From Longimicrobium sp. (GTDB lineage: Bacteria > Gemmatimonadota > Gemmatimonadetes > Longimicrobiales > Longimicrobiaceae), in the NCBI GenBank assembly GCA_036387335.1, contig DASVTZ010000008.1:1-47795 (forward strand): 47,795 bases of DNA, given 5' to 3'. Positions 3,168 to 36,528 of the stretch are shown in pieces. The notes under the pieces are model-generated. The model was given only the letters and a program-made list of their open reading frames with translations, searched no databases and was not told the origin of the DNA. A program made the translations under genes and the position numbers. The first letter of the stretch is position 1. Each line of letters opens with the position of its first letter.

Positions 3168-3968
3168 TTACTTGAATGTTTGCCACAATGTGAACACTAA
3201 GGACACAACGGCAAGCAAGCCGCAAACAATCGTAATGAAAAGTGAGGTTCGGCCCAGTCTCGATGAGCCCTCAAGCTCACGTTTCACAGGTTCAATAATT
3301 TCACGTCGGACTGCGAACATGCTTTGCTCAATAGCGGCGATGTCGCGCGCCTGCGTCCTCAGTTGAGAAATCAGTTCATTGAAAGGGCCTGGGTTAAGCA
3401 CTTGCTGATTCTCGCGCACCAGTCTCTCGAGTGACCGGATTACCCTGCTCATACCTACTTCTAACGGGAGCCCATCGCCTGCCTCTGTTTCAAGGGCGCG
3501 ATTCAGAGTCTTCTGAAACACGACCTCGTGCTCCGTTGGCGGCGGGACATCGTCATGAGCTTCCAGTTCCACAACATGGAAGCCATCATTGTCGGAGTTC
3601 CAGAGGCCATGTAGTCGGACATAGCGTGCTGTGAACGGTGAGGCAAAGTCAAAAACCTGCCAGCCATTAGAACCCTGATAACCTGTGTCGTAATGCACCG
3701 TCCAGGTTTCGTGATCAACGGAGGTGAGTAAGCGGTACAGGTAGCGGCGGGTTGCTCTCTGGCCGCCCCGAATCCCCCGTTGATCCCATAAAAGAAATCG
3801 TATGCAGATTATCTGAAAAGTTGCCCCAAGATCGACGGTTAGTGTCCCCGGCCAGTTCACATGCGTGAATCCGTGGTTCCCTGTGTAGCCAGTAATTATG
3901 CCATCCGTAGTGCATTCAGGGTTTCCGACATCCTCTTCGACCAGTTTCCCCAAAGCTCGATTTGACAT
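3168..3968 (-). CDS. Discoidin (F5/8 type C)-domain protein with C-terminal membrane anchor
   Basis: The 266-residue protein has an N-terminal discoidin-like beta-sandwich (residues about 15-140; LTVDLGATFQI, RYLYRLLTSVDHETWTVHYD, FASPFTARYVRLHG). A helical stretch of about 80 residues with coiled-coil character follows, then one hydrophobic helix at the very end (LFITIVCGLLAVVSLVFTLW). Discoidin domains usually bind sugars or lipids outside the cell, but no signal peptide is seen, so the topology suggests a tail-anchored protein with its sandwich in the cytoplasm. Base composition is clearly more AT-rich than every neighbour, a sign of transfer. The start is supported by AGAGG five bases upstream, which lies in a small hairpin that abuts the ATG. 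The exact role is unknown. Confidence 0.75.
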   Translation of the reverse strand: MSNRALGKLVEEDVGNPECTTDGIITGYTGNHGFTHVNWPGTLTVDLGATFQIICIRFLLWDQRGIRGGQRATRRYLYRLLTSVDHETWTVHYDTGYQGSNGWQVFDFASPFTARYVRLHGLWNSDNDGFHVVELEAHDDVPPPTEHEVVFQKTLNRALETEAGDGLPLEVGMSRVIRSLERLVRENQQVLNPGPFNELISQLRTQARDIAAIEQSMFAVRREIIEPVKRELEGSSRLGRTSLFITIVCGLLAVVSLVFTLWQTFK

Positions 3969-8433: not shown

Positions 8434-9320
8434 TTCTTCATCCCGTTCAGCAGCTCGATCATGCGCACGTCCCAGGGATCGCCCGTGGGGTCGTCGTCGG
8501 CGATCTCGGGATTCTCCTGCGGCGTCTCCAGGATCAGCGGGATGTCGCGGCTGCGGGGGTCGGCCAGGAGCCACCCGAACGCGTCCGCGCCGATCTCGCC
8601 CTCGCCGATCAGCAGGTGGCGGTCCTTGTTGCTCCCCAGCGTCCCCTCGCTGTCGTTGAGGTGGATGAAGCCGGGGTGCTCGCCCGTGGCCTCCTCCCAC
8701 TCGTCCAGGATCTCGCCGACCCGCTTCTTCGACTCGTTGAGCGGGTAGCCGGACGCGAAGAGGTGGCAGGTGTCCAGCCCGTACCCCGTGCGCTCGCGCA
8801 GCTCGTCGGGCACGTGGCGCAGGATGTCGCCCACCTCGGCGGCGGTGCGGCCGAGCGTCTTGCCGGCGCCGGCCGTGTTCTCCACCAGCACGCGCGTGGA
8901 GCCCTGCACCGCGCGCAGCGCCGCGGTGATGGCGCGGGCGACGCGCTCCGCCGCGGCCGCCGTGTCGCCGTCGCTGGCGGAGCCCGGGTGGAAGCAGATC
9001 GCGCCCACCCCCAGCGCGGTCGAGCGCTCCAGCTCTTTCGTGAGGCCCGCGCTGGCGCGCACCCACTTCGCCTCGTCCGGCGTGGCGACGCCCAGCACGT
9101 ACGCGCCGTGCACCACCACGTGCTCCGGCCTGATCCCCACCTCGGAGAGCGCGGCGTGGAAGCGGCGCGCCTTCTCCGGCTTCATCCCCGCCTTTTCGCC
9201 GTAGAAGCGCGGCGGCGCCGTGAAGATCTGCAGCGCCCGCGCGCCGGAGTTGCCGGCCCGCAGCGCGGCCATGTGGATGCCGCCGTTGTCGATGGTGTGC
9301 GCGCCGATGAAGTGGGGCAT
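8430..9320 (-). CDS. nfo: Deoxyribonuclease IV (AP endonuclease)
   Basis: The 296-residue protein is a full TIM-barrel AP endonuclease of the Nfo family. All nine zinc-ligand positions known from the E. coli enzyme can be assigned: VVVHGAYV, CFHPGS, VLVENTAG, LDTCHLF, FIHLNDSEG, KDRHLLIGEG and LETP. It nicks DNA at abasic sites in base excision repair. I chose the ATG at 9320 because the family starts within a few residues of IGAHTI; an upstream in-frame GTG at 9362 adds 14 unconserved residues. No good ribosome-binding site is visible. It heads a run of four overlapping genes. Confidence 0.92.
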   Translation of the reverse strand: MPHFIGAHTIDNGGIHMAALRAGNSGARALQIFTAPPRFYGEKAGMKPEKARRFHAALSEVGIRPEHVVVHGAYVLGVATPDEAKWVRASAGLTKELERSTALGVGAICFHPGSASDGDTAAAAERVARAITAALRAVQGSTRVLVENTAGAGKTLGRTAAEVGDILRHVPDELRERTGYGLDTCHLFASGYPLNESKKRVGEILDEWEEATGEHPGFIHLNDSEGTLGSNKDRHLLIGEGEIGADAFGWLLADPRSRDIPLILETPQENPEIADDDPTGDPWDVRMIELLNGMKK

Positions 9321-9369
9321 GTGCGGCTGGGCTGAAGGGTCGGTTGCGGGCGGTTCCCCCACCCCCCGG

Positions 9370-9398
9370 CCCCCTTCCCCCGCAAGCGGGGGAGGGGG
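9370..9398. repeat. GC-rich hairpin repeat, family A (variant)
   Basis: A run of C's and T's pairs with the complementary run after a two-base loop (arms end in CCCGC and GCGGG). It lies between the DUF559 gene and nfo and resembles the hairpins at 9813, 21911, 24271, 24394, 36531, 36771 and 39600. It may act as a transcriptional attenuator or be a mobile REP-like element. Confidence 0.7.
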
Positions 9399-9401
9399 TG
9401 A

Positions 9402-9785
9402 CTATCGGCGGGGGTCCGCGCCGGGTGTTAGGATCTCGGAACGCAAGGTTTGGAGCACCTCGTCGAGGCGCTCGAGCACGTCCTCGTTTCGGAAGCGGAT
9501 CACGCGGATGCCGCGTGCCGCGAGGGCCTTTGTGCGTTCTTCGTCATGCTCGCGCTGGTGGTCGTGGATCTCGCCGTCTACCTCGATGGCCAGCTTGCGC
9601 GAGGGGCAGTAGAAATCCAGTACGAAGCGGTCGAGGGGGTGCTGTCGCCGAAAAGGCACGTCGCAGAAGCGGTGGTCGCGCAGCTCGTTCCAGAGCACCC
9701 GCTCGGCCGGTGTCGAGTTCTTCCGCATGGCCCGCGCCGCTTGCAACACCTGCGGGATGCGCCTGCCCGTGTGCTTGCGGTCCAC
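9402..9785 (-). CDS. DUF559 endonuclease-domain protein (Vsr-like fold)
   Basis: The 127-residue protein has the DUF559 signature: RKNSTPAERVLWNELR, FRRQHPLDRFVLDFYCPSRKLAIEVDGEIHDHQREHDEERTKAL, then GIRVIRFRNEDVL. The D...E-x-D set fits the PD-(D/E)XK nuclease fold shared with Vsr mismatch endonucleases. Its role in the cell is not established. I chose the GTG at 9785, which has GGAG a few bases upstream. An in-frame ATG at 9896 would add 37 residues that are encoded by the hairpin repeat (PSPSPSPASGRG) and look non-native. Hairpin repeats flank it on both sides. Confidence 0.8.
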   Translation of the reverse strand: MDRKHTGRRIPQVLQAARAMRKNSTPAERVLWNELRDHRFCDVPFRRQHPLDRFVLDFYCPSRKLAIEVDGEIHDHQREHDEERTKALAARGIRVIRFRNEDVLERLDEVLQTLRSEILTPGADPRR

Positions 9786-9812
9786 ACCGTCTCCGGGAGG
9801 TGCGCAGATGTG

Positions 9813-9857
9813 CTCCCCTCTCCCGCTTGCGGGGGAGGGGCTGGGGGAGGGGGGAAG
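9813..9857. repeat. GC-rich hairpin repeat, family A (variant)
   Basis: CCCCTCTCCCGC pairs with GCGGGGGAGGGG around a two-base loop, followed by a further GGGGGAGGGG tail. It lies just upstream of the DUF559 start. Same type as the copy at 9370. Confidence 0.7.
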
Positions 9858-9927
9858 CTCCGCACTTGACCCCCGCGCCGCAACCCCCCAAAACAATCTG
9901 GTACGCGCGGTGGCGCGTAAACACCGG

Positions 9928-9956
9928 TTGCCATTTGCGGCCGGTGCTACTAAACT
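9928..9956 (+). promoter_or_regulatory. Sigma-70-type promoter of the M16 protease operon
   Basis: TTGCCA (five of six consensus bases) and TAAACT (four of six) are separated by exactly 17 bases, about 110 bases before the first M16 ATG. It is the best hexamer pair I found in the window. Confidence 0.55.
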
Positions 9957-10064
9957 AGCAGGCCGTCGCGGAGTTCATTCCGCGCGAAGGCTCCTCCCCG
10001 GAGCACGCAGCACCCAGCGGTCGGGAGGCCTCCCGATCGCATCCGTCATCCGCACGAGGGATCT

Positions 10065-26663: not shown

Positions 26664-29579
26664 TTACGCGTCGGGGGGGAGGTGGTGGGGAAGGGTGAGG
26701 GTGAAGGTGCTGCCGGTGCCAGGGGTGCTGCGGACGGTGAGGTCGCCGCCGAGGATGCGGGCGTATTCGCGGGCCAGGGGGAGGCCCAGGCCGGTGCCGC
26801 CCTCGCGGCGCGTCATCGTCGGCTCCACCTGGTAGAAGGGCTCCCAGACGCGCTCCACGTGCTCGGCGGCGATTCCGGGGCCCGTGTCCTCCACTTCCAC
26901 CGCCACGCCGTCGCCGTGGGGGGCAACGCGCACGATCACTCCGCCCTGCTCGGTGAACTTTAGGGCGTTGCCGACCATGTTGGTGAGGATCTGGCGCACC
27001 ATCCCCAGGTCCGTGCGGATGCGGGGTGTCGCCTCGGATTCCAGCCGCAGCGTGAGATGCTTGCGCTCCGCCGCGCCGCACAGGGCGTCCACCACCGAGC
27101 CGGAGAGGGAGACTACGTTCACCTCCTCAGGCTCGGGGCGCTTGGCGCCGGCTTCGAGGCGCGCCACGTCCAGCACCTGCTCGATGAGGCCCAGGAGGTG
27201 GCGCTGCGACGCGCGCATCCGCGAGAGGGCGTGCGCCTGGCGGGGGTTCACGGGGCCGTAGATCTCGTCCGCCATCAGCGACGCGTACCCCTCCAGCGCG
27301 TTCAGCGGGGTGCGCAGCTCGTGGCTCATCGTCGCCAGGAAGTTGCTCTTGGCGTGGCTGGCCTCCTGCGCCGCCTCGTACAGCCGCGCGTTGCGCACGG
27401 CGATGGCGGCGTGGTTCGCCAGGAGCGAGAGGAGGCGCAGGTGCTCGCCGGTGAAGTCGGGGGCGCCCGGCGGGTTCACCACCGCGATCAGGCCCAGCCC
27501 CTCGTCGCCCACGCGGAGCGGCGCCACGGCGAGCGTGCCCACGCCGAACTGTGACAGGTGACGCAGCGGGGCGGGCGCGTCGGGATCGCCGGTATCCAGG
27601 ATGAGCGGCGCGCCACCGCGGAGGACCTGCTCGGTGAGGGAGCCCGCCAGCGCGCCCTCCATCCCCTGGATGGGCACCAGCGGCCCGGTCGCGACGGCGG
27701 TCCTCACGCGGTTCTGCTCCTTCCCCGTCACCAGCGTCAGCCCCGCACCCGCGGCGCCGGTCAGCTCCTCCGCGATCCCCACGATGCGCGCCGTGACCTC
27801 GGTGGGGTCGAGGGTCGAGGAGAGAACCTCTGCTGCGGCGAGGAGGGCGCGGCTCTCGTCGGCGCGGCGCCGCTCGCCGGCCAGGAGGCGGGCGTTGTGC
27901 ATCGCCATGGCGGCGGAGTCGGCGAGCGCCTCCAGCACCCGGACGTCTTCGGCGGTGAAATCCTCGGCGCGGTCCACCACGCCGAGCACGCCGAACGACT
28001 CGCCGAAGGCGCGCATCGGCGCCAGGATGACGTTGCGCACGCCCAGCCGGTGAAAGGTGGCGAGCGTCCCGGTGCCGCCTGGGATCTCGCCCGGCGTGTT
28101 GTAGACCAGGGTGCGCCCCTCCCGCTGCACGATCTCCAGCGACGAGCCGGCCAGCGGAAAGACGGCCCCGTTCACCTGCGCCATGATGCCGAGCGCCGGC
28201 CCCACGCGCGCCCTGCCATCCCCGCGCGCGGCGTTCACGTAGGCGCCGCGCGAACCCAGAAGCTCCATGGCGGAGCGCGTCGCCAGCTCCAGCACGCGCG
28301 CGGGGTCCAGCTCGGACACCAGGAGCCGCCCGATCTCGCGGAGCGCGCGGCTCTCCTCGGCGCGGAGGGCGGCGTCGGCGGCGGCGGCTTCGGCCTCCAC
28401 CTGGCGCTCGATCAGTGCCCGCTCCAGCCGCAGCCGCTCGGTGATGTCGTAGAAGGCGACCATCGCGCGGTCCACCTGCCCCGCCGCGTCGCGCAGCGGC
28501 ACGCCCATCCCCAGCACGGTGCGCTCCTTTCCGTCCGGCAGGGGGATGACCATCTCCACCTCGGGCGTCGCCTCGCCGTGGAGGGCGCGCACCAGGGGGA
28601 TCTCGTCCGCTTCGAAGGGCTCGCCGGCGGGGGTGCGGACCGGCCAGTGGGCCAGGTAATTGCTCGCATCGTGGTCGCCCAGCTCTTCCGCCGTGCGCCC
28701 GCCCAGCCGCGCGCCCGCGGGGTTCACGTACGCGATCCGCCCATCCGGCGCCCACGCCACGATCACGCCGACCGGCAGCGTGTCCAGGATGTCGAAGAGG
28801 GCGCGCCGCTCCGCCTCGGCCGCGCGGCGGGCACGTACAGGGTTCGTCACCTCCACCGCGACGACGAGGAGGTGGCGGCGGCCGTCCGAGGCGTCCACGG
28901 CGCGCACGCTCAGCCGCAGCCACTTCGGGCGCGGCCCCGTGGGCGGAACGCGGAGCTCGGCTACTTCCCACGCCTCGCCCGTCTCCGCCACCCGCTTCAC
29001 CCGCTGCTCCGCCGCCGACCCCGCCCACCCCGGGACGATCTCGGCCGGCGTGTGCCCCACCAGCGAGCCCGGCTCGCGCCACGGATCGGCGAGCAGGGTG
29101 TGGCACGCGGCGTTGGCCTCGCGCACCTCCAGCGTCTCCGCGTCCAGCAGCGCCACGGCGACGGGGAGGTGCGCGACCATCGAGGCGAGGCGGGCCTCGT
29201 GCGTGGCGGCCGCTCCGGGCGCGGGGGCGGTGCGCGGGGTGGTGTGCCGCACGTGCACGCGCAGGTCGCCGGTGGGGAGCGGCTCGGCCTCCACTTCCCA
29301 GGTGCGCCCGGCCCCGCGCGCGCCCGCCACGCGGAAGCAGACGGCGGCGCGGTCCTCCATCGCCCGCTCCAGCGCCTCGGCCTCCGGCGTGCCGCGCCAC
29401 CCCGGGAGCGCATCCCACAACGACGACACCCCCTCGCGCCTCCCCAGCAGGTGAAGGATCTCCAGCAGCGAGGCGTTGACGTAGCGGAAGCGCCAGTCCG
29501 GCGCCAGCACGCACACGCCTTCACGGGCAGCGCCGTAGCGCGCTTCGTGGTCGCGGTGGCGGGCTTCTGGGCTGGGCAT
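26664..29579 (-). CDS. Soluble PAS/GAF sensor histidine kinase
   Basis: The 971-residue protein has no membrane helix. In order: a short PAS-like domain (about 15-120), PAS domains at about 135-250 and 260-390 (FDILDTLPVGVIVAWAPDGRIAYVNPAG), a coiled coil, GAF domains at about 425-570 and 590-730 (LLSLLANHAAIAVRNARLYE closes the second), HisKA with SHELRTPLN (His753), and a HATPase domain (NMVGNALKFTEQGG, EDTGPGIA, EGGTGLGL). It is an orphan kinase: no response regulator is adjacent. The ATG at 29579 has no clear ribosome-binding site; an in-frame start at 29690 is possible but adds unconserved residues. Confidence 0.87.
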   Translation of the reverse strand: MPSPEARHRDHEARYGAAREGVCVLAPDWRFRYVNASLLEILHLLGRREGVSSLWDALPGWRGTPEAEALERAMEDRAAVCFRVAGARGAGRTWEVEAEPLPTGDLRVHVRHTTPRTAPAPGAAATHEARLASMVAHLPVAVALLDAETLEVREANAACHTLLADPWREPGSLVGHTPAEIVPGWAGSAAEQRVKRVAETGEAWEVAELRVPPTGPRPKWLRLSVRAVDASDGRRHLLVVAVEVTNPVRARRAAEAERRALFDILDTLPVGVIVAWAPDGRIAYVNPAGARLGGRTAEELGDHDASNYLAHWPVRTPAGEPFEADEIPLVRALHGEATPEVEMVIPLPDGKERTVLGMGVPLRDAAGQVDRAMVAFYDITERLRLERALIERQVEAEAAAADAALRAEESRALREIGRLLVSELDPARVLELATRSAMELLGSRGAYVNAARGDGRARVGPALGIMAQVNGAVFPLAGSSLEIVQREGRTLVYNTPGEIPGGTGTLATFHRLGVRNVILAPMRAFGESFGVLGVVDRAEDFTAEDVRVLEALADSAAMAMHNARLLAGERRRADESRALLAAAEVLSSTLDPTEVTARIVGIAEELTGAAGAGLTLVTGKEQNRVRTAVATGPLVPIQGMEGALAGSLTEQVLRGGAPLILDTGDPDAPAPLRHLSQFGVGTLAVAPLRVGDEGLGLIAVVNPPGAPDFTGEHLRLLSLLANHAAIAVRNARLYEAAQEASHAKSNFLATMSHELRTPLNALEGYASLMADEIYGPVNPRQAHALSRMRASQRHLLGLIEQVLDVARLEAGAKRPEPEEVNVVSLSGSVVDALCGAAERKHLTLRLESEATPRIRTDLGMVRQILTNMVGNALKFTEQGGVIVRVAPHGDGVAVEVEDTGPGIAAEHVERVWEPFYQVEPTMTRREGGTGLGLPLAREYARILGGDLTVRSTPGTGSTFTLTLPHHLPPDA

Positions 29580-29676
29580 GGCACGGGGCCAGGGTTGCGT
29601 TACGTGACGGAATCGGTCGTCTGGTGGCAAGAAGACGGCCATCCTCCGGGAGCGAGTAAAAACCCAGCTACATGGC

Positions 29677-29763
29677 TCACACAGAGACACAGAGATGAAA
29701 AGAGAGAACGACCACGGGGCTGTTCTCCGCGGCTTGCAGTTGTCTCTGTGCCCTCTGTGTGAT
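29677..29763. repeat. Inverted repeat with CACAGAG/CTCTGTG arms
   Basis: TCACACAGAGACACAGAG on the left is mirrored by TCTCTGTGCCCTCTGTGTGA on the right, around about 45 bases. It differs in sequence from family C but has the same overall form. Confidence 0.75.
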
Positions 29764-29815
29764 GGTTCGCTTGTGCCGTTCTTCGCCCCCGAACCGCCAC
29801 TACATTTGTTTTCAC

Positions 29816-29839
29816 TTCGTTCAGTATTGACTGAACGAA
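29816..29839. promoter_or_regulatory. Perfect palindrome, likely operator of the efflux operon
   Basis: TTCGTTCAGT and its exact reverse complement ACTGAACGAA flank a four-base centre (ATTG). It ends 48 bases before the regulator's ATG. TTGACT, a good -35 match, overlaps its centre and right arm, so a bound dimer would block RNA polymerase. The regulator itself is the natural candidate to bind it. Confidence 0.65.
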
Positions 29840-29887
29840 ACGAACGCTTTAGCTTGCGGCCTCGAATTCCCCTGACCCGGTGAGCAG

Positions 29888-30367
29888 ATGGAAGGATCGG
29901 TACAGCAGTTCGTGGAGCGGATGGGGCTCCTTTGCGAGCGGGAAGGGATGCCGCGCGGGGCCGGACGCATGTTCGGGCTGCTGCTGGTGGGCGACCGGGC
30001 GTACTCGCTCGACGAGCTCACCGAGAAGCTGCAGGCCAGCAAGGCGTCCGTCAGCACCAACGCGCGCATGCTGGAGTCGCTGGGACTCATCGAGCGGGTG
30101 TCGTCGCTGGGGGACCGGCGCGACTTCTACCGCGCGGGCGACGACCCGTGGGAGAGGATGCTGCGCGTGGCGCAGGGTCGCTGGACAGACATGATCCAGC
30201 TCTTCGACGAGGCCCGCGAGAGCTTCCCGGCCGACCGCGCCGTGGGATGCGAGCGCCTCTGCGGGGCGGCCCGCTTCCACCGCCTCCTGGTGGACCGGGT
30301 GGAAGGGCTGATCCAGGAGTGGAAGGAGACCCGCCGCGCCAGCCGCCGGACCGGCGACGCGGCGTGA
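29888..30367 (+). CDS. GbsR/MarR-family transcriptional regulator
   Basis: The 159-residue protein has the GbsR layout: a helical start (QQFVERMGLLCEREGMPRGAGRMFGLLLVG), the winged helix (YSLDELTEKLQASKASVSTNARMLESLGLIERVSSLGDRRDFYRAG), and a long C-terminal helix pair for dimerisation. GbsR proteins control osmoprotectant or efflux genes. It is 27 bases from the TolC gene in the same direction, so it probably regulates this RND operon through the palindrome upstream. Confidence 0.87.
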   Translation: MEGSVQQFVERMGLLCEREGMPRGAGRMFGLLLVGDRAYSLDELTEKLQASKASVSTNARMLESLGLIERVSSLGDRRDFYRAGDDPWERMLRVAQGRWTDMIQLFDEARESFPADRAVGCERLCGAARFHRLLVDRVEGLIQEWKETRRASRRTGDAA

Positions 30368-30394: not shown

Positions 30395-32038
30395 ATGAGA
30401 TCGCACAAAGGGTATCGCCGCGGGGCGGCCGCCCTCTTCCTGCTTGCATTCGCGGCACCGCTCGCGGCGCAGACCCCGGTGGCTTCGCGCCCCGCGGCCG
30501 GCGCGGCGCTGTCGCTGGAGGACGCGCTGCGCGTGGCCGAGGACGCCAGCGAGACGGTGGCCGTGGCGCGGGCAGGGGTGACGCGGGCGCGCGGGCAGGT
30601 GCTGCAGGCGCGCAGCCAGCGGCTTCCGCAGATCGCCGGGAACCTGTCGTACTCGCGCACGCTGGCGTCGCAGTTCTCGGGGTTCAGCGGGGCGGACACC
30701 ACCGGAACCGGGCCGCCCGCCGGGTGTCCCGTACCGCCGCCCACCGGGCCGTACACGCCCAACCCGGCGCTCCCCATCGAGCAGCGGGTGGACTCGCTGG
30801 AGCAGCGGCTGCGCTGCGCGGGGCAGGGGACGAACCCCTTCGCGGGGCTCAGCAGCGCCGGCTTCGGAAGCGAGAACACCTGGCGCTACGGGGTGACGGC
30901 GCAGCAGAACCTGTTCAACGGCGGCGCCCTCAACGCGCAGAACCGCATCGCGGACGCGGGGCGGCGCGTGGCCGAGGTGACGCTGAGCACCCAGCGCGCG
31001 CAGCTCGCCCTGGACGTGACGCAGGCGTACTTCGACGCGGGGCTCGCCAACCAGCTTGTGGACATCGCGGAGGCGACGCTGGCACAGGCGGAGACGACGC
31101 TGCGCCAGACGACGCTCGCGCGGCAGGTGGGGAACCAGCCCGAGTTCGACCTGCTGCGTGCCCAGGTCTCGCGCGACAACCTGCGCCCGCTGCTCATCCA
31201 GCGCCGGGCCGAGCGCGACCTGGCGTTCCTGCGCCTCAAGCAGCTCCTGGACCTTCCGGCCGACGTGCCCATCACCCTCACCACGCCGCTGGACGACGCG
31301 CGGCCGGTGTCGGTGGCGCGCTTCGCCAGCCGCGAGGAGGCGCTGGGCGATACATCCACCGCGCTGCGCGCGCCCGTACGGCAGGCGGCGGAGGCGGTGC
31401 GCGTGCAGGAGGAGCAGCGGCGGATCGCGAGGGCTGCCTCGTATCCCAACATCGCGCTGACCTTCAGCTACGGGCGGGTGGCGTTCCCGCAGGACGTGCT
31501 TCCCGCGTACGACGACTTCCGCACCAACGCCAGCGTGGGGGCGGGGCTCTCGGTGCCCATCTTCACCGGCGGGCGGTTGCGCGGCGAGCGGCTGGTGGCC
31601 GAGGCCAACCTCGCCGAGGCGCAGGCCCAGTACCGCCAGACGCGCGAGGCGGCGTCGCTCGACACGCGCACCGCGCTGGAGCAGCTGGAGGCGGCGCAGG
31701 CGTCGTGGCAGGCGTCGACCGGCACGGTGGAGCAGGCGCGGCGCGCGTACTCCATCGCCGAGATCCGCTACCGGGAGGGGATCTCCACGCAGATCGAGGT
31801 GGCGGACTCGCGCATTCTCCTGCAGCAGGCGGAGGCCAACCGCGCCCAGGCCGCGCGCGACCTGGCGGTGGCGCGCGTGAGGCTGGCGCTCCTTCCCGAC
31901 CTTCCGTTCAACCTCGGCGGCGCGGCGCGCACGCAGTCGTCGGCGGGGCAGAACACGCAGCAGCAGCAGCGGCCGCAACAGCAGCAGGCGCCCGCGACGG
32001 ATCCCACACAGGCGGCGTTCACCGGAGGCGGTCAATGA
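30395..32038 (+). CDS. TolC-family outer-membrane efflux channel
   Basis: The 547-residue protein has a signal peptide (AAALFLLAFAAPLAAQ) and the duplicated TolC repeat (LSLEDALRVAEDASETVAVARAGVTRARGQVL; NLAEAQAQYRQTREAASLDTRTALEQLEAAQASW; YREGISTQIEVADSRILLQQAEANRAQA). An unusual Gly/Pro-rich stretch of about 65 residues lies near residue 95-160, and the C-terminus is Gln-rich (QQQQRPQQQQ). It forms the outer-membrane duct of the tripartite pump. Its stop overlaps the adaptor's ATG by four bases. Confidence 0.92.
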   Translation: MRSHKGYRRGAAALFLLAFAAPLAAQTPVASRPAAGAALSLEDALRVAEDASETVAVARAGVTRARGQVLQARSQRLPQIAGNLSYSRTLASQFSGFSGADTTGTGPPAGCPVPPPTGPYTPNPALPIEQRVDSLEQRLRCAGQGTNPFAGLSSAGFGSENTWRYGVTAQQNLFNGGALNAQNRIADAGRRVAEVTLSTQRAQLALDVTQAYFDAGLANQLVDIAEATLAQAETTLRQTTLARQVGNQPEFDLLRAQVSRDNLRPLLIQRRAERDLAFLRLKQLLDLPADVPITLTTPLDDARPVSVARFASREEALGDTSTALRAPVRQAAEAVRVQEEQRRIARAASYPNIALTFSYGRVAFPQDVLPAYDDFRTNASVGAGLSVPIFTGGRLRGERLVAEANLAEAQAQYRQTREAASLDTRTALEQLEAAQASWQASTGTVEQARRAYSIAEIRYREGISTQIEVADSRILLQQAEANRAQAARDLAVARVRLALLPDLPFNLGGAARTQSSAGQNTQQQQRPQQQQAPATDPTQAAFTGGGQ

Positions 32039-33144
32039 GGAATAGAGGAATGCGCGCCGCAGCCGCGGCGTCGGTGCTGGTGCTTGCGGCTTGCGGGCGG
32101 GATTCGGACGCGGCGGTGGCCAAGGGGCCGGCGGAGATCGTGCTGGGACCGGAGGCGATTGAGATCGTTTCCACCCGCGAGGTGTCGAGCGGGCCCACCC
32201 TTTCCGGCACGCTGGCGGCGGAGCGCGAGGCGGCGGTGACGGCGCAGCTCGGCGGGACGGTGCTGCAGGTGACGGCGGACCGCGGGCAGCCGGTGCGCGC
32301 GGGGCAGACGCTGGGGCGCATCGACGACTCCGCGATCCGCGACGCGGTGATCTCCGCCCAGTCCGGGGTGCGGTCGGCGCAGATCAGCGTGAGCACGGCG
32401 CAGCGCAACTCGGAGCGCGCCGCCACCCTCAACCAGGCCGGCGCCGTGGCGGACCGCGACCTGGAGCTGGCGCGCAGCCAGCTGGCTGCGGGGCAGGCGC
32501 AGCTCGCCGATGCCCGCACGCGGCTGGCGCAGGCGCGCAAGCAGCAGTCCAACACCATCATCTCGGCGCCGATCAGCGGCATCGTGAGCGCGCGGCCGGT
32601 GAGCGCGGGCGACGTGGTGCAGCCGGGGACGCCGCTCTTCACCATCATCGACCCCGGCAGCATGCGGCTGGAGGCGGCGGTGCCGGCGGAGCAGCTCAGC
32701 GCGCTGCGGGTGGGCACACCGGTGAGGTTCACCATCAGCGCGTACCCGGGGCGCACCTTTACCGGCACCATCCAGCGCATCTCCCCCGCGGCCGACCCGG
32801 CCACGCGGCAGATCCCGGTGGTGGTGACGATCCCCAACCAGGACGGGGTGCTGGTCTCCGGCCTCTTCGCCGAGGGGCGGGTTCAGGCGGAAGCGCGGCA
32901 GGCGGTGACGGTGCCGGCCGACGCGGTGGACGAGCGCGGCGTGGCGCCCAGCGTGCTGCGGCTGCGCGGCGGCAAGGCGGAGCGGGTGACGGTGCAGCTC
33001 GGCGCGCGCGACTCGGACACGGACCGCGTGGAGGTGATCACGGGTTTGGCGCCGGGCGACACGGTGCTGGTGGGGGCGGCGGTCGGCACCACGCCGGGAG
33101 CCAAGGTACGGGTGCGCGCCGCCGGCGCCGCCCCGGCACGGTAA
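32035..33144 (+). CDS. RND efflux periplasmic adaptor, lipoprotein
   Basis: The 369-residue membrane-fusion protein has a lipobox LAAC at about residues 17-20. The barrel-sandwich/lipoyl halves are at TLSGTLAAEREAAVTAQLGGTVLQV and TIISAPISGIVSARPVSAGDVV, with a helical hairpin between. The beta-barrel domain (LRVGTPVRFTISAYPGRTFTGTI) and membrane-proximal domain follow. It links the inner-membrane pump to the TolC channel. It overlaps tolC and lies 12 bases before the pump gene. Confidence 0.92.
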   Translation: MRNRGMRAAAAASVLVLAACGRDSDAAVAKGPAEIVLGPEAIEIVSTREVSSGPTLSGTLAAEREAAVTAQLGGTVLQVTADRGQPVRAGQTLGRIDDSAIRDAVISAQSGVRSAQISVSTAQRNSERAATLNQAGAVADRDLELARSQLAAGQAQLADARTRLAQARKQQSNTIISAPISGIVSARPVSAGDVVQPGTPLFTIIDPGSMRLEAAVPAEQLSALRVGTPVRFTISAYPGRTFTGTIQRISPAADPATRQIPVVVTIPNQDGVLVSGLFAEGRVQAEARQAVTVPADAVDERGVAPSVLRLRGGKAERVTVQLGARDSDTDRVEVITGLAPGDTVLVGAAVGTTPGAKVRVRAAGAAPAR

Positions 33145-33156
33145 GGAGACGGCACC

Positions 33157-36100
33157 ATGTTCATCTCGGATTTCGCCATCAAGAAGCCCGTCGTCACCGT
33201 GGTGACGATGCTGGCGCTGGTGGTGTTCGGCATCTTTGCGCTCATCAATCTGGACACGGACGAGTTCCCTGAGGTCTCGCCGCCCATCGTGAACGTGGCG
33301 GTGCCGTACCCCGGCGCCTCGCCCGACATCGTGGAGCGCGAGGTGGTGGAGCCGATGGAGGAGGCGATCGCCGGGATCAGCGGCGTGGACCGCGTGACCT
33401 CGCAGTCGCTGGACGGCTTCGGCACCATCCTGGTGGAGTTCAACTTCGAAAAGGATCTGCAGCAGGCCACGCAGGACATCCGTGACGCCGTGTCGCAGAT
33501 TCGCGGCGACCTGCCGCCGGAGATGGAGGAGCCGATCCTCACCCGCTTCGACCCGAACGACCAGCCGATCGTCTCGCTGACGCTGTCGTCTCAGGCGCTG
33601 CGCTCCCCCGAGCTCACGCGGCTGGCCGACCCCGGCGTGACGCGGCAGCTGCGCGGCCTGCAGGGCGTGGCCGAGGTGAACGTGGTGGGCGGCGTGGAGC
33701 GCGAGCTGACGGTGGAGGTCGATCCGCAGCGCATGCAGGCGGCGGGCATCGGCATTCCGCAGGTGGTGCAGGCGGTGCAGTCGCAGAACCTGGCCGCGCC
33801 GGTGGGGCGCATCAACGGCGCGCTGGACGAGCGCACCATCCGCCTGCGCGGCCGCCTGGCGAACCCGGCGGAGTTCTCGCAGCTCGTGGTGGCGCAGCGC
33901 GGCGGGCAGATCATCCGCCTGGGCGAGGTCGCCACCGTCCGCGACGGCACCGAGGAGGCGCGGTCGGTGGCGCTCTTCAACGGGCGCCCCGCGGTGGGGA
34001 TCGAGGTGGTGAAGTCGCAGGGGTACAGCACCACCGCCGTCGCCGAGCGGGTGCTGGCCGAGATCACGGAGCTGCAGAAGACGCTGCCGGCCGGCGTGGA
34101 GCTGGGCGTGGTGCAGAACGCCGGCGAGCGGGTGGAGAACTCGGTGAACAACGTGCAGGAGACGCTCATCGAGGGCGCGCTCCTCACGGTGCTCGTCGTC
34201 TTCATCTTCCTCAACTCGTGGCGCAGCACCATCATCACCGGCCTGGCGCTGCCGGTGTCGGTGCTGGCCTCGTTCACGGCGGTGTGGGCCTTCGGCTTCA
34301 CGCTCAACACGATGTCGCTGCTGGGCCTCTCGCTGGCCATCGGCATCCTGATCGACGACGCCATCGTGGTGCGAGAAAACATCGTGCGCCACGTGGAGAT
34401 GGGTAAGGACCACTACACGGCGGCGCGCGAGGGCACGGACGAGATCGGACTGGCCGTGGCGGCCACGACGTTCTCCATCGTCTGCGTCTTCGTGCCCATC
34501 GCCTTCATGGGGAGTTTGGCGGAGCAGTGGTTCGCGCCGTTCGCGCTCACCATCGCCTGCTCGGTGCTGGTGTCTCTCTTCGTGTCGTTCTCGCTGGACC
34601 CGATGCTCTCCGCCTACTGGCCGGACCCGCACGTGCCCGAGAACGAGAAGTGGTGGATCACGCGGATGCTGGACCGCTTCAACCGCTGGTTCGACCACCA
34701 GGCGCACCGCTACCGCCGGGTGATCGGGTGGGCGCTGGACCACCGGCTCTTCATCGTGATGCTGGCGCTGGGGATGTTCCTGGGCGCCCTGCAGATCCCC
34801 GCCACCGGCATCCTGGGCTTCGCCGTGGTGCTGGGGATGGCGCTGCTGGCCGCCGTCGTCGCCCCGCTCGTACCCATCGGGCGCAGGCGCCGCGGCAAGA
34901 TCCTGGGCGGCATCGGGCGAGCGGCGGTGGTGCTGGGCTCGCTGATGATCGGGATGATGGCGGCAGGGATGGTGCCCGTCGTCTTCAAGCTGGGCGGCGA
35001 GTTCTTCCCCGCCGACGACCGCAGCGAGTTCATGGTGGAGATCGACACTCCGCCGGGCAGCAACCTGGCCTACACGCAGATGAAGGCCGAGGAGGTGGCG
35101 TCGCTGGCCCGCGGCAAGCCCGAGGTGCGCTACACCTACACCACGGTGGGCGGGCGCGGCGGGGCGGTGGACGAGGCGACGGTCTACATCCGCCTCACCC
35201 CCAAGGGCGACCGCGCGCGCGGGCAGGACGAGATCGCGGCCGAGCTTCGCGAAGAGGCCAAGCGCATCGGCGGGGCGGAGGCGGCGCTGGCCACGGGCGG
35301 CTTCGGCAACCAGAAGCAGATCCAGATCCAGCTTCGCGGGCCGGACCTGGCCACCCTCAACACCCTCGCCGAGCAGGTGATGGCTGAGGTGAAGCAGGTG
35401 CCCGGCGCGGTGGACGTCAGCCTCTCCACCAAAGGCCAGCGCCCGGAGCTCACGGTGGAGCTGAACCGCGGGCTGGCGGGGTCGCTGGGCGTGACGGCGG
35501 GCCAGGTCGCGCAGGCCCTCCGCCCCGCCTTCGCCGGCATCGATGCGGGCGACTGGGTGGACCCCTCGGGCGAGACGCGCGACGTGTACGTGCGCTTCTC
35601 CGCGGAGGCGCGCAGCCGCACGGCCAACCTGGAGGCGGTGCCGCTGGTGCTCCCGCCGACGGGCGCGGGCGGGCCGGTCTCGGTGCCGCTGGGGCAGGTG
35701 GCCCGCGTGCAGCGCAACCTGGGCCCCGCCGTCATCAGCCACCTGGACCGCGAGCGCGTCATCAACGTGGAGGCTAACACGGAGGGCGTCCCGCTGACCG
35801 ACGTGGTCGCCGGCATCACCCAGCGGCTGGAGAAGGTCAACGTCCCGGTGGGCTACCAGGTGTCGCAGGGCGGCGAGACGGAGGACCAGAACGAGGTGTT
35901 CGGGCGCATCTTCTTCGCGCTGGGCGTGGCGGTGATGCTGATGTACCTGATCCTGGTCGTGCAGTTCGGCTCGTTCCTGGACCCGCTTCCCATCATGTTC
36001 TCCCTGCCGCTCTCGCTGGTGGGGGTGATGCTGGGGCTGCGCATCACGGGGAACACGCTCAACATCATGAGCATGATCGGCGTGATCCTGCTGATGGGGA

Positions 36101-36528
36101 TCGTGGCCAAGAACGCCATCCTGCTGATCGACTTCGCCATCTGGTCGCAGGAGAAGGGGCTGCCGCGGCGCGAGGCGCTGATCGAGGCGGGCGCCATCCG
36201 CCTGCGCCCGATCCTGATGACGACGTTCGCGCTGATCGCCGGCATGATCCCGGTGGCGCTGGGGTCGGGCGAGGGGGCGCAGTTCCGCTCACCGCTGGGG
36301 GTGGCCGTGATCGGCGGCACCATCACCTCCACCCTGCTCACCCTGATCGCGATCCCGACGTTCTACGAGATCCTGGACGAGCTGCGCGAGAACACGATGG
36401 CGTTCTTTGGGCGCAAGTCCACGCACGCAGCGGGTGCGCATGGCGGCGGGCACGGTGGCGGCGGGCATGGCGACGAGCGCCCGCGCCGGGTGACGGTGCT
36501 GGAGCCGGAGGCGGTGCCGGGGGATTGA
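33157..36528 (+). CDS. RND efflux pump, inner-membrane transporter
   Basis: The 1123-residue protein is an HAE1-like RND transporter: N-terminal helix (PVVTVVTMLALVVFGIFAL), porter-domain motif AVPYPGASPDIVEREV, TM4 with the proton-relay aspartates GILIDDAIVV (Asp400, Asp401), and C-terminal TM10-12 (GVILLMGIVAKNAILLIDFAI; RLRPILMTTFALIAGMIPVAL). It exports drugs, detergents or similar compounds by proton antiport. Two oddities: residues about 548-610 add two hydrophobic segments around an RRRRGK loop between TM7 and the FFP motif, and the C-terminus ends in a His/Gly-rich tail (AHGGGHGGGGHG). GGAG lies upstream of the ATG. Confidence 0.92.
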   Translation: MFISDFAIKKPVVTVVTMLALVVFGIFALINLDTDEFPEVSPPIVNVAVPYPGASPDIVEREVVEPMEEAIAGISGVDRVTSQSLDGFGTILVEFNFEKDLQQATQDIRDAVSQIRGDLPPEMEEPILTRFDPNDQPIVSLTLSSQALRSPELTRLADPGVTRQLRGLQGVAEVNVVGGVERELTVEVDPQRMQAAGIGIPQVVQAVQSQNLAAPVGRINGALDERTIRLRGRLANPAEFSQLVVAQRGGQIIRLGEVATVRDGTEEARSVALFNGRPAVGIEVVKSQGYSTTAVAERVLAEITELQKTLPAGVELGVVQNAGERVENSVNNVQETLIEGALLTVLVVFIFLNSWRSTIITGLALPVSVLASFTAVWAFGFTLNTMSLLGLSLAIGILIDDAIVVRENIVRHVEMGKDHYTAAREGTDEIGLAVAATTFSIVCVFVPIAFMGSLAEQWFAPFALTIACSVLVSLFVSFSLDPMLSAYWPDPHVPENEKWWITRMLDRFNRWFDHQAHRYRRVIGWALDHRLFIVMLALGMFLGALQIPATGILGFAVVLGMALLAAVVAPLVPIGRRRRGKILGGIGRAAVVLGSLMIGMMAAGMVPVVFKLGGEFFPADDRSEFMVEIDTPPGSNLAYTQMKAEEVASLARGKPEVRYTYTTVGGRGGAVDEATVYIRLTPKGDRARGQDEIAAELREEAKRIGGAEAALATGGFGNQKQIQIQLRGPDLATLNTLAEQVMAEVKQVPGAVDVSLSTKGQRPELTVELNRGLAGSLGVTAGQVAQALRPAFAGIDAGDWVDPSGETRDVYVRFSAEARSRTANLEAVPLVLPPTGAGGPVSVPLGQVARVQRNLGPAVISHLDRERVINVEANTEGVPLTDVVAGITQRLEKVNVPVGYQVSQGGETEDQNEVFGRIFFALGVAVMLMYLILVVQFGSFLDPLPIMFSLPLSLVGVMLGLRITGNTLNIMSMIGVILLMGIVAKNAILLIDFAIWSQEKGLPRREALIEAGAIRLRPILMTTFALIAGMIPVALGSGEGAQFRSPLGVAVIGGTITSTLLTLIAIPTFYEILDELRENTMAFFGRKSTHAAGAHGGGHGGGGHGDERPRRVTVLEPEAVPGD

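Follow-up and report, generated by a model that had tools for sequence, protein, structure and literature searches.

The stretch analysed here, referred to throughout as the window, comprises 47,795 nucleotides with a GC content of 70.6%. It contains an efflux operon on the plus strand that is headed by a regulator gene, followed after a gap of 27 bases by genes for an outer membrane efflux protein (OEP), a periplasmic adaptor (MFP) and an RND permease; the ATG of the MFP gene overlaps the OEP stop codon. The candidate operator is located between a divergent sensor kinase gene and the regulator gene, with the palindrome starting 72 bases 5' of the regulator ATG (29888). The features of the locus are as follows.

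26664–29690, minus strand: divergent sensor kinase with PAS, GAF, HisKA and HATPase domains
29809–29846, no strand assigned: putative extended operator with four half-sites on a 9-base grid
29816–29839, no strand assigned: perfect palindrome with centre ATTG, putative operator core, conserved before regulator homologues
29827–29832, plus strand: predicted −35 hexamer TTGACT, across the palindrome axis
29850–29855, plus strand: predicted −10 hexamer TAGCTT, 17 bases after the −35
29888–30367, plus strand: GbsR/MmpR5-like MarR regulator of 159 amino acids (PF12802, PF01047 and fold matches)
30395–32038, plus strand: outer membrane efflux protein (OEP, TolC-like; PF02321)
32035–33144, plus strand: periplasmic adaptor (MFP; TIGR01730, 237 bits with a cut-off of 94.9)
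33157–36528, plus strand: RND permease (AcrB/MdtB-like; PF00873)

The palindrome TTCGTTCAGTATTGACTGAACGAA consists of TTCGTTCAGT, the centre ATTG and ACTGAACGAA, and its letters agree with the preliminary description of a perfect 10-base palindrome around a four-base centre. The overlap with TTGACT claimed there is likewise correct, with the hexamer spanning the palindrome axis. The further statement that such symmetry is unlikely by chance in a GC-rich genome holds for AT-rich repeats and not for perfect 10-base repeats in general. A search of the window for perfect inverted repeats (arms of at least 10 bases, spacer of 0–8) returned ten overlapping entries that correspond to five distinct places, compared with a mean of 2.4 entries in dinucleotide shuffles (n = 40), whereas repeats that, like the operator palindrome, are at least 50% AT gave a single entry over all 40 shuffles. 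With three mismatches allowed, a search of the window for the full palindrome pattern still gives a single occurrence, with none expected (100 shuffles). Symmetry was dropped as proof of an operator, since the window holds five perfect 10-base inverted repeats; by itself it is suggestive evidence of moderate weight, and the operator question is therefore decided by comparison across genomes.

The regulator matches the MarR winged helix-turn-helix (wHTH) families PF12802 (27.1 bits, cut-off 27) and PF01047 (26.2 bits, cut-off 24.6), and its predicted model (pLDDT 92.9) displays helices and two strands in wHTH order. The best solved relative by profile is 4nb5 (6.1e-29), followed by 5jbr and 1ku9, and a single-sequence search returned the same three structures (4nb5 at 4.2e-14). 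The model superposes on 4nb5, which is Rv0678 (PMC10156607), with a Z score of 19.4 and 1.5 Å over 146 residues at 30% identity; 5jbr and 1ku9 tie at a Z score of 16.1. The latter is Mj223 of Methanocaldococcus jannaschii (PDB 1KU9), an archaeal protein whose operator is described as unknown (PMC7396694), and its superposition (r.m.s.d. of 4.3 Å over 146 residues) indicates a Mj223/GbsR-type fold over most of the chain. All NCBIfam matches, CudC included, fall under the curated cut-offs, and the score for the CudC choline regulator (NF047500) is 43.6 bits with a cut-off of 218. The label 'GbsR-type regulator' given previously is thus appropriate for the fold, that of a GbsR-type MarR protein, and has to be refined in that the protein resembles Rv0678/MmpR5 more closely than it does the choline regulators. 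The aromatic cage of the osmostress subgroup is described as absent outside that subgroup (PMC6207618). As in an MmpR5/Rv0678-like arrangement, an RND-superfamily transporter adjoins the regulator in the window operon, and OEP, MFP and/or RND matches adjoin it in most of the loci examined. Among named relatives, the nearest one identified is Longimicrobium sp. YPbin7, with a regulator that is 92% identical.

Regulator homologues were located by protein search in 38 of 99 related genomes, including that of the window. The conservation sample comprised 44 regulator genes from protein searches, that of the window among them; the four weakest regulator matches (G023, G060, G078 and G082) and four duplicates of other loci (L031–L034) were left out. 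The half-site consensus was built on the window together with close relatives, and the related sequences are not independent. At least 13 of 16 half-site bases are matched in 36 of the 44 regulator upstream regions, the other eight falling under this threshold, compared with 4 of 1208 stretches taken elsewhere in these loci and 1 of 880 in a shuffle control; as the consensus was taken from the family itself, the contrast with the controls weighs more than the match rate. When near-identical sequences are dropped, 32 of the 36 sites remain. Genome G006 has a 97% identical regulator; its DNA has diverged further upstream, but hardly at all in the operator and promoter. The preliminary description had named a lack of conservation among relatives sharing the operon as one result that would count against the proposed operator; almost every close homologue is preceded by the site. 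At a further locus (L066), divergent regulator paralogues (9074–9400, minus strand, and 9584–10021, plus strand) share one operator palindrome.

The pattern CGTTCAGT-N4-ACTGAACG with at most one mismatch occurs at 21 sites in the 99 genomes, every one of them 34–176 bases 5' of a regulator homologue, while a reversed-pattern control yielded one site in each of two genomes. The preliminary description had proposed a genome search for other copies. With up to three mismatches, the pattern is found at 13 places in the own genome (seven for the reversed control), three of which precede regulators: the window site and two further copies on contig 214, where two tandem regulator paralogues head a second OEP–MFP–RND operon (L048, 2183–8920) and each has its own operator copy, with one and three mismatches. 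The remaining ten places all have three mismatches and fit background. Within this limit of three mismatches, the own genome gives no sign of a wider regulon, with weaker sites being possible.

The sequence TTGAC stands at the axis in 28 of the 44 homologous sites, and 25 of these 28 have TAnnnT at a spacing of exactly 17 bases, compared with one site at most for any other spacing between 9 and 26. With TTGACT across the axis and TAnnnT at a fixed distance, the operator is predicted to overlap the −35 of a promoter, and this −35, not symmetry, best accounts for the conservation of the centre ATTG. A generic promoter scan called no promoter at the window site, and the −10 hexamer TAGCTT is weak by itself. 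The fixed −10 spacing, the location of all 21 sites before regulator homologues and the copies before the paralogues support the original assignment of the palindrome as operator of the RND operon.

The operator appears to be longer than was stated originally and to consist of four half-sites on a 9-base grid, which is new here. In the window these are TTCA (29811–29814), TTCA (29820–29823), TGAA (29832–29835) and CGAA (29841–29844), the last with three of four bases. Spacings were determined in 70 upstream regions, namely the 44 above, 13 from wider Gemmatimonadota and 13 from alphaproteobacteria, with L136 left out as a duplicate of L035. The arrangement TTCA-N8-TGAA is present in 40 of the 70 upstream regions (33 of these 40 sites are distinct at 80% identity) and in none of 70 gene bodies. 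Spacings of N17 (24/70) and N26 (6/70) between TTCA and TGAA lie on the same 9-base grid, and every other spacing from 0 to 27 is found in at most three regions. Pairs in the same direction are likewise concentrated at one spacing, TTCA-N5-TTCA in 15 and TGAA-N5-TGAA in 13 of the 70 regions, with at most two at other spacings, and the control in reversed order (TGAA followed by TTCA) reaches at most 4/70 at any spacing. A second TTCA-N8-TGAA in the window, at 3502, lies within an ORF; it was taken as chance and rejected as an operator.

Symmetry under change was assessed in 32 non-near-identical sites. Positions ±7 are complementary in 30 of them (23.5 expected; reached by none of 500 shuffles) and positions ±9 in 28 (25.0 expected; reached by 37 of 500 shuffles), where two rows of the set represent the one site shared at L066 and the statistics ignore kinship. 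No significant paired change was detected for the outer half-sites, with positions ±15 to ±19 matching about as well as in shuffled rows, and the case for these half-sites rests on spacing enrichment and conservation. On the protein side, residue 49 (Q/H) is associated with the base at ±7 (24/37 versus 0/4, Fisher p 0.02) in a comparison that was chosen post hoc and is confounded by kinship; an unbiased column scan for regulator residues co-varying with the half-site gave nothing convincing and placed residue 49 outside the top 12.

We interpret the palindrome as the operator of the downstream regulator gene, with a probability of roughly 90%. A GbsR/MmpR5-like MarR dimer would bind the inner TTCAGT-N4-ACTGAA pair, and a second protein unit, giving two dimers, would probably occupy the outer half-sites. 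The bound protein would cover TTGACT and prevent RNA polymerase from starting the regulator–OEP–MFP–RND operon until a ligand, probably a pump substrate, released the repressor. As the regulator is the first gene of the operon, such a circuit would be one of negative autoregulation. What the sequence comparison offers towards this model is the site, conserved and specific to the regulator family, together with its built-in promoter and the grid of half-sites every 9 bases.

The proteins of this type studied in Bacillus subtilis bear on how the regulator might act. The half-sites of the gbsAB operator are four bases apart, as in the window. GbsR acts as a roadblock from a site downstream of the transcription start, so GbsR-type proteins do not all block a −35 (PMC7396694). 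A regulator that binds the window site and activates, or that mainly acts as a roadblock, could also be reconciled with the weak −10, as seen at some activated promoters. We nevertheless consider this unlikely, because the −35 lies within the operator and the 17-base spacing is kept in 25 of 28 sites, a layout with the −35 in the operator is described for OpcR, another GbsR-type MarR protein of B. subtilis (PMC7396694), and repression is the role described for those GbsR-type proteins that have been characterised (PMC6207618). Both OpcR and GbsR differ from the present case in their A/T-rich operators and in governing osmoprotectant genes (PMC7396694).

The position of the site between the two genes would also allow the palindrome to control the divergent sensor kinase (26664–29690, minus strand), in addition to the regulator or as its main target, and kinase homologues are found 5' of the regulator in several relatives (G004, G005, G014 and G015 among them). 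We regard this as improbable, since the conserved −35 and −10 are oriented towards the regulator and the site is present in G006 (L049) with no kinase match in the 1.8 kb upstream. Pump operons often have several regulators, and in relatives such as L051 a TetR-family gene (8885–9520, minus strand) is situated between the regulator and OEP genes, which raises the question of whether the site serves another protein, for instance a TetR-family or global regulator, and not the product of the following gene. This has little to recommend it: the window operon lacks this TetR-family gene and keeps the site, the 21 sites go with homologues of the window regulator, tandem paralogues included, and the CydE footprint contains TTCA-N8-TGAA bound by a GbsR-type protein (PMC6096048). 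Finally, an inverted repeat with a four-base loop is able to form a stem, but a transcription terminator or RNA hairpin is highly implausible, as no terminator-like site was found at 29580–29900 and the conserved features agree with a promoter and with half-sites for a dimer, with ATTG preserving TTGACT and not a loop.

The preferred reading, a repressor that acts on the promoter of its own pump operon, has parallels in two known systems. Rv0678 (MmpR5) is the MarR-type repressor that regulates MmpS5–MmpL5, an RND-superfamily pump of Mycobacterium tuberculosis (PMC5895659), and is the closest solved relative of the window regulator by both sequence and fold. The element TTTCAGAGTACAGTGAAA upstream of Rv0678 contains TTCA-N8-TGAA, like the window operator, but is suggested to lie at the −10 (PMC10300004) and not at the −35, and the pump is of the MmpS/MmpL type instead of OEP–MFP–RND. 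Mutations in the intergenic region before Rv0678 are associated with decreased and with increased drug susceptibility (PMC10300004). The second system is CydE, a GbsR-type repressor of the cytochrome bd genes in Alishewanella sp. WH16-1, for which site 1 of the DNase footprint, TATTTCAGAAATTTCTGAAAGTTCA, holds TTCAGAAATTTCTGAA and thereby the same TTCA-N8-TGAA as the window (PMC6096048). CydE represses its own operon (PMC11837568), as proposed for the present circuit, but it governs cytochrome bd and not a pump, is derepressed by sulfate and has a second footprinted site without the motif (PMC6096048).

Beyond the 99 related genomes, a regulator match was obtained in 24 of 150 genomes of wider Gemmatimonadota; seven of the 13 new regulators have a site with at least 13 of 16 half-site bases and six fall under the threshold. 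In the alphaproteobacterial order to which the Bauldia genome belongs, a regulator match was obtained in 12 of 199 genomes, and 12 of 14 regulators have the site (one of the 14 was already counted as L035), which at L140 has 15-base perfect arms. The next genes at these 14 loci encode MMPL in four cases and MFP in nine, so that one or the other is present in 13; eight of the nine MFP loci also show the start of an RND permease, and L139 has neither MMPL nor MFP within the 1.5 kb examined. Homologues also occur on plasmids, for which eight regions were examined out of 175 records with a match (among the matches listed). TTCA-N8-TGAA is present in three of the eight and absent from five. The three are a Roseateles plasmid with regulator, adaptor and RND permease and a 12-base perfect inverted repeat, a Rhodococcus plasmid and a Rhizobium plasmid on which the regulator lies beside cydD and has TTCAGAAATTTCTGAA. 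A blastn search of plasmids with the operator–regulator DNA returned one partial match only, inside a MarR gene.

On balance, we favour the view that GbsR/MmpR5-type regulators of RND pumps and of cytochrome bd use one common operator code in different phyla. This code would consist of TTCAG-N6-CTGAA, extended to a total of four half-sites at 9-base intervals and in many cases placed around a TTGACT −35, and would be kept in Gemmatimonadota, in alpha- and betaproteobacteria and probably in mycobacteria, even where the type of pump has changed. We propose an operator with TTCA-N8-TGAA, present in the window at 29820, as a criterion for such regulators; the criterion is our own and not an established one. 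A pump operon preceded by an autoregulated repressor–operator pair is nothing unusual. The interest lies in the cross-phylum operator, and the rule common to several phyla and pump types may be new. The contexts given in a survey of the GbsR family are importers, cydAB, glycine betaine synthesis and Opu; RND operons are not named in the examined parts of the survey, in whose main text 'efflux' occurs once, in relation to water, and 'multidrug', 'exporter' and 'resistance-nodulation' are absent (PMC6207618). In the open papers searched, we found none joining GbsR, efflux and RND and no statement that phyla and pump types have such an operator rule in common. For a regulator subfamily that has been little characterised and includes Rv0678, the targets appear to be predictable from a single spacing rule (TTCA-N8-TGAA plus outer half-sites at a further 9 bases), which would allow regulons to be read from sequence. 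If the code is correct, two dimers would load cooperatively onto the four half-sites and the response would be switch-like.

Several other sequence elements were observed at or near these loci. In Rhizobium johnstonii pRL9 (L154), a perfect palindrome, TGATTTCAGAAATTTCTGAAATCA, is located 5' of 3483 at a GbsR-type regulator beside cydD and is nearly the CydE footprint sequence. Palindromes resembling AAGCAAGTGCTTGC (contig-strand reading) are found near the TetR-family gene of those relatives that have one between the regulator and OEP genes. In the window, a short repeat, TCTCTGTGNCCTCTGTGTGA, occupies positions 29743–29762, just 5' of the operator, with an inverted relative at ∼29677–29695. 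This is a dispersed repeat, which is absent from the corresponding spot in G006 and is found at 87 places in the own genome with up to two mismatches, compared with none for the reversed control.
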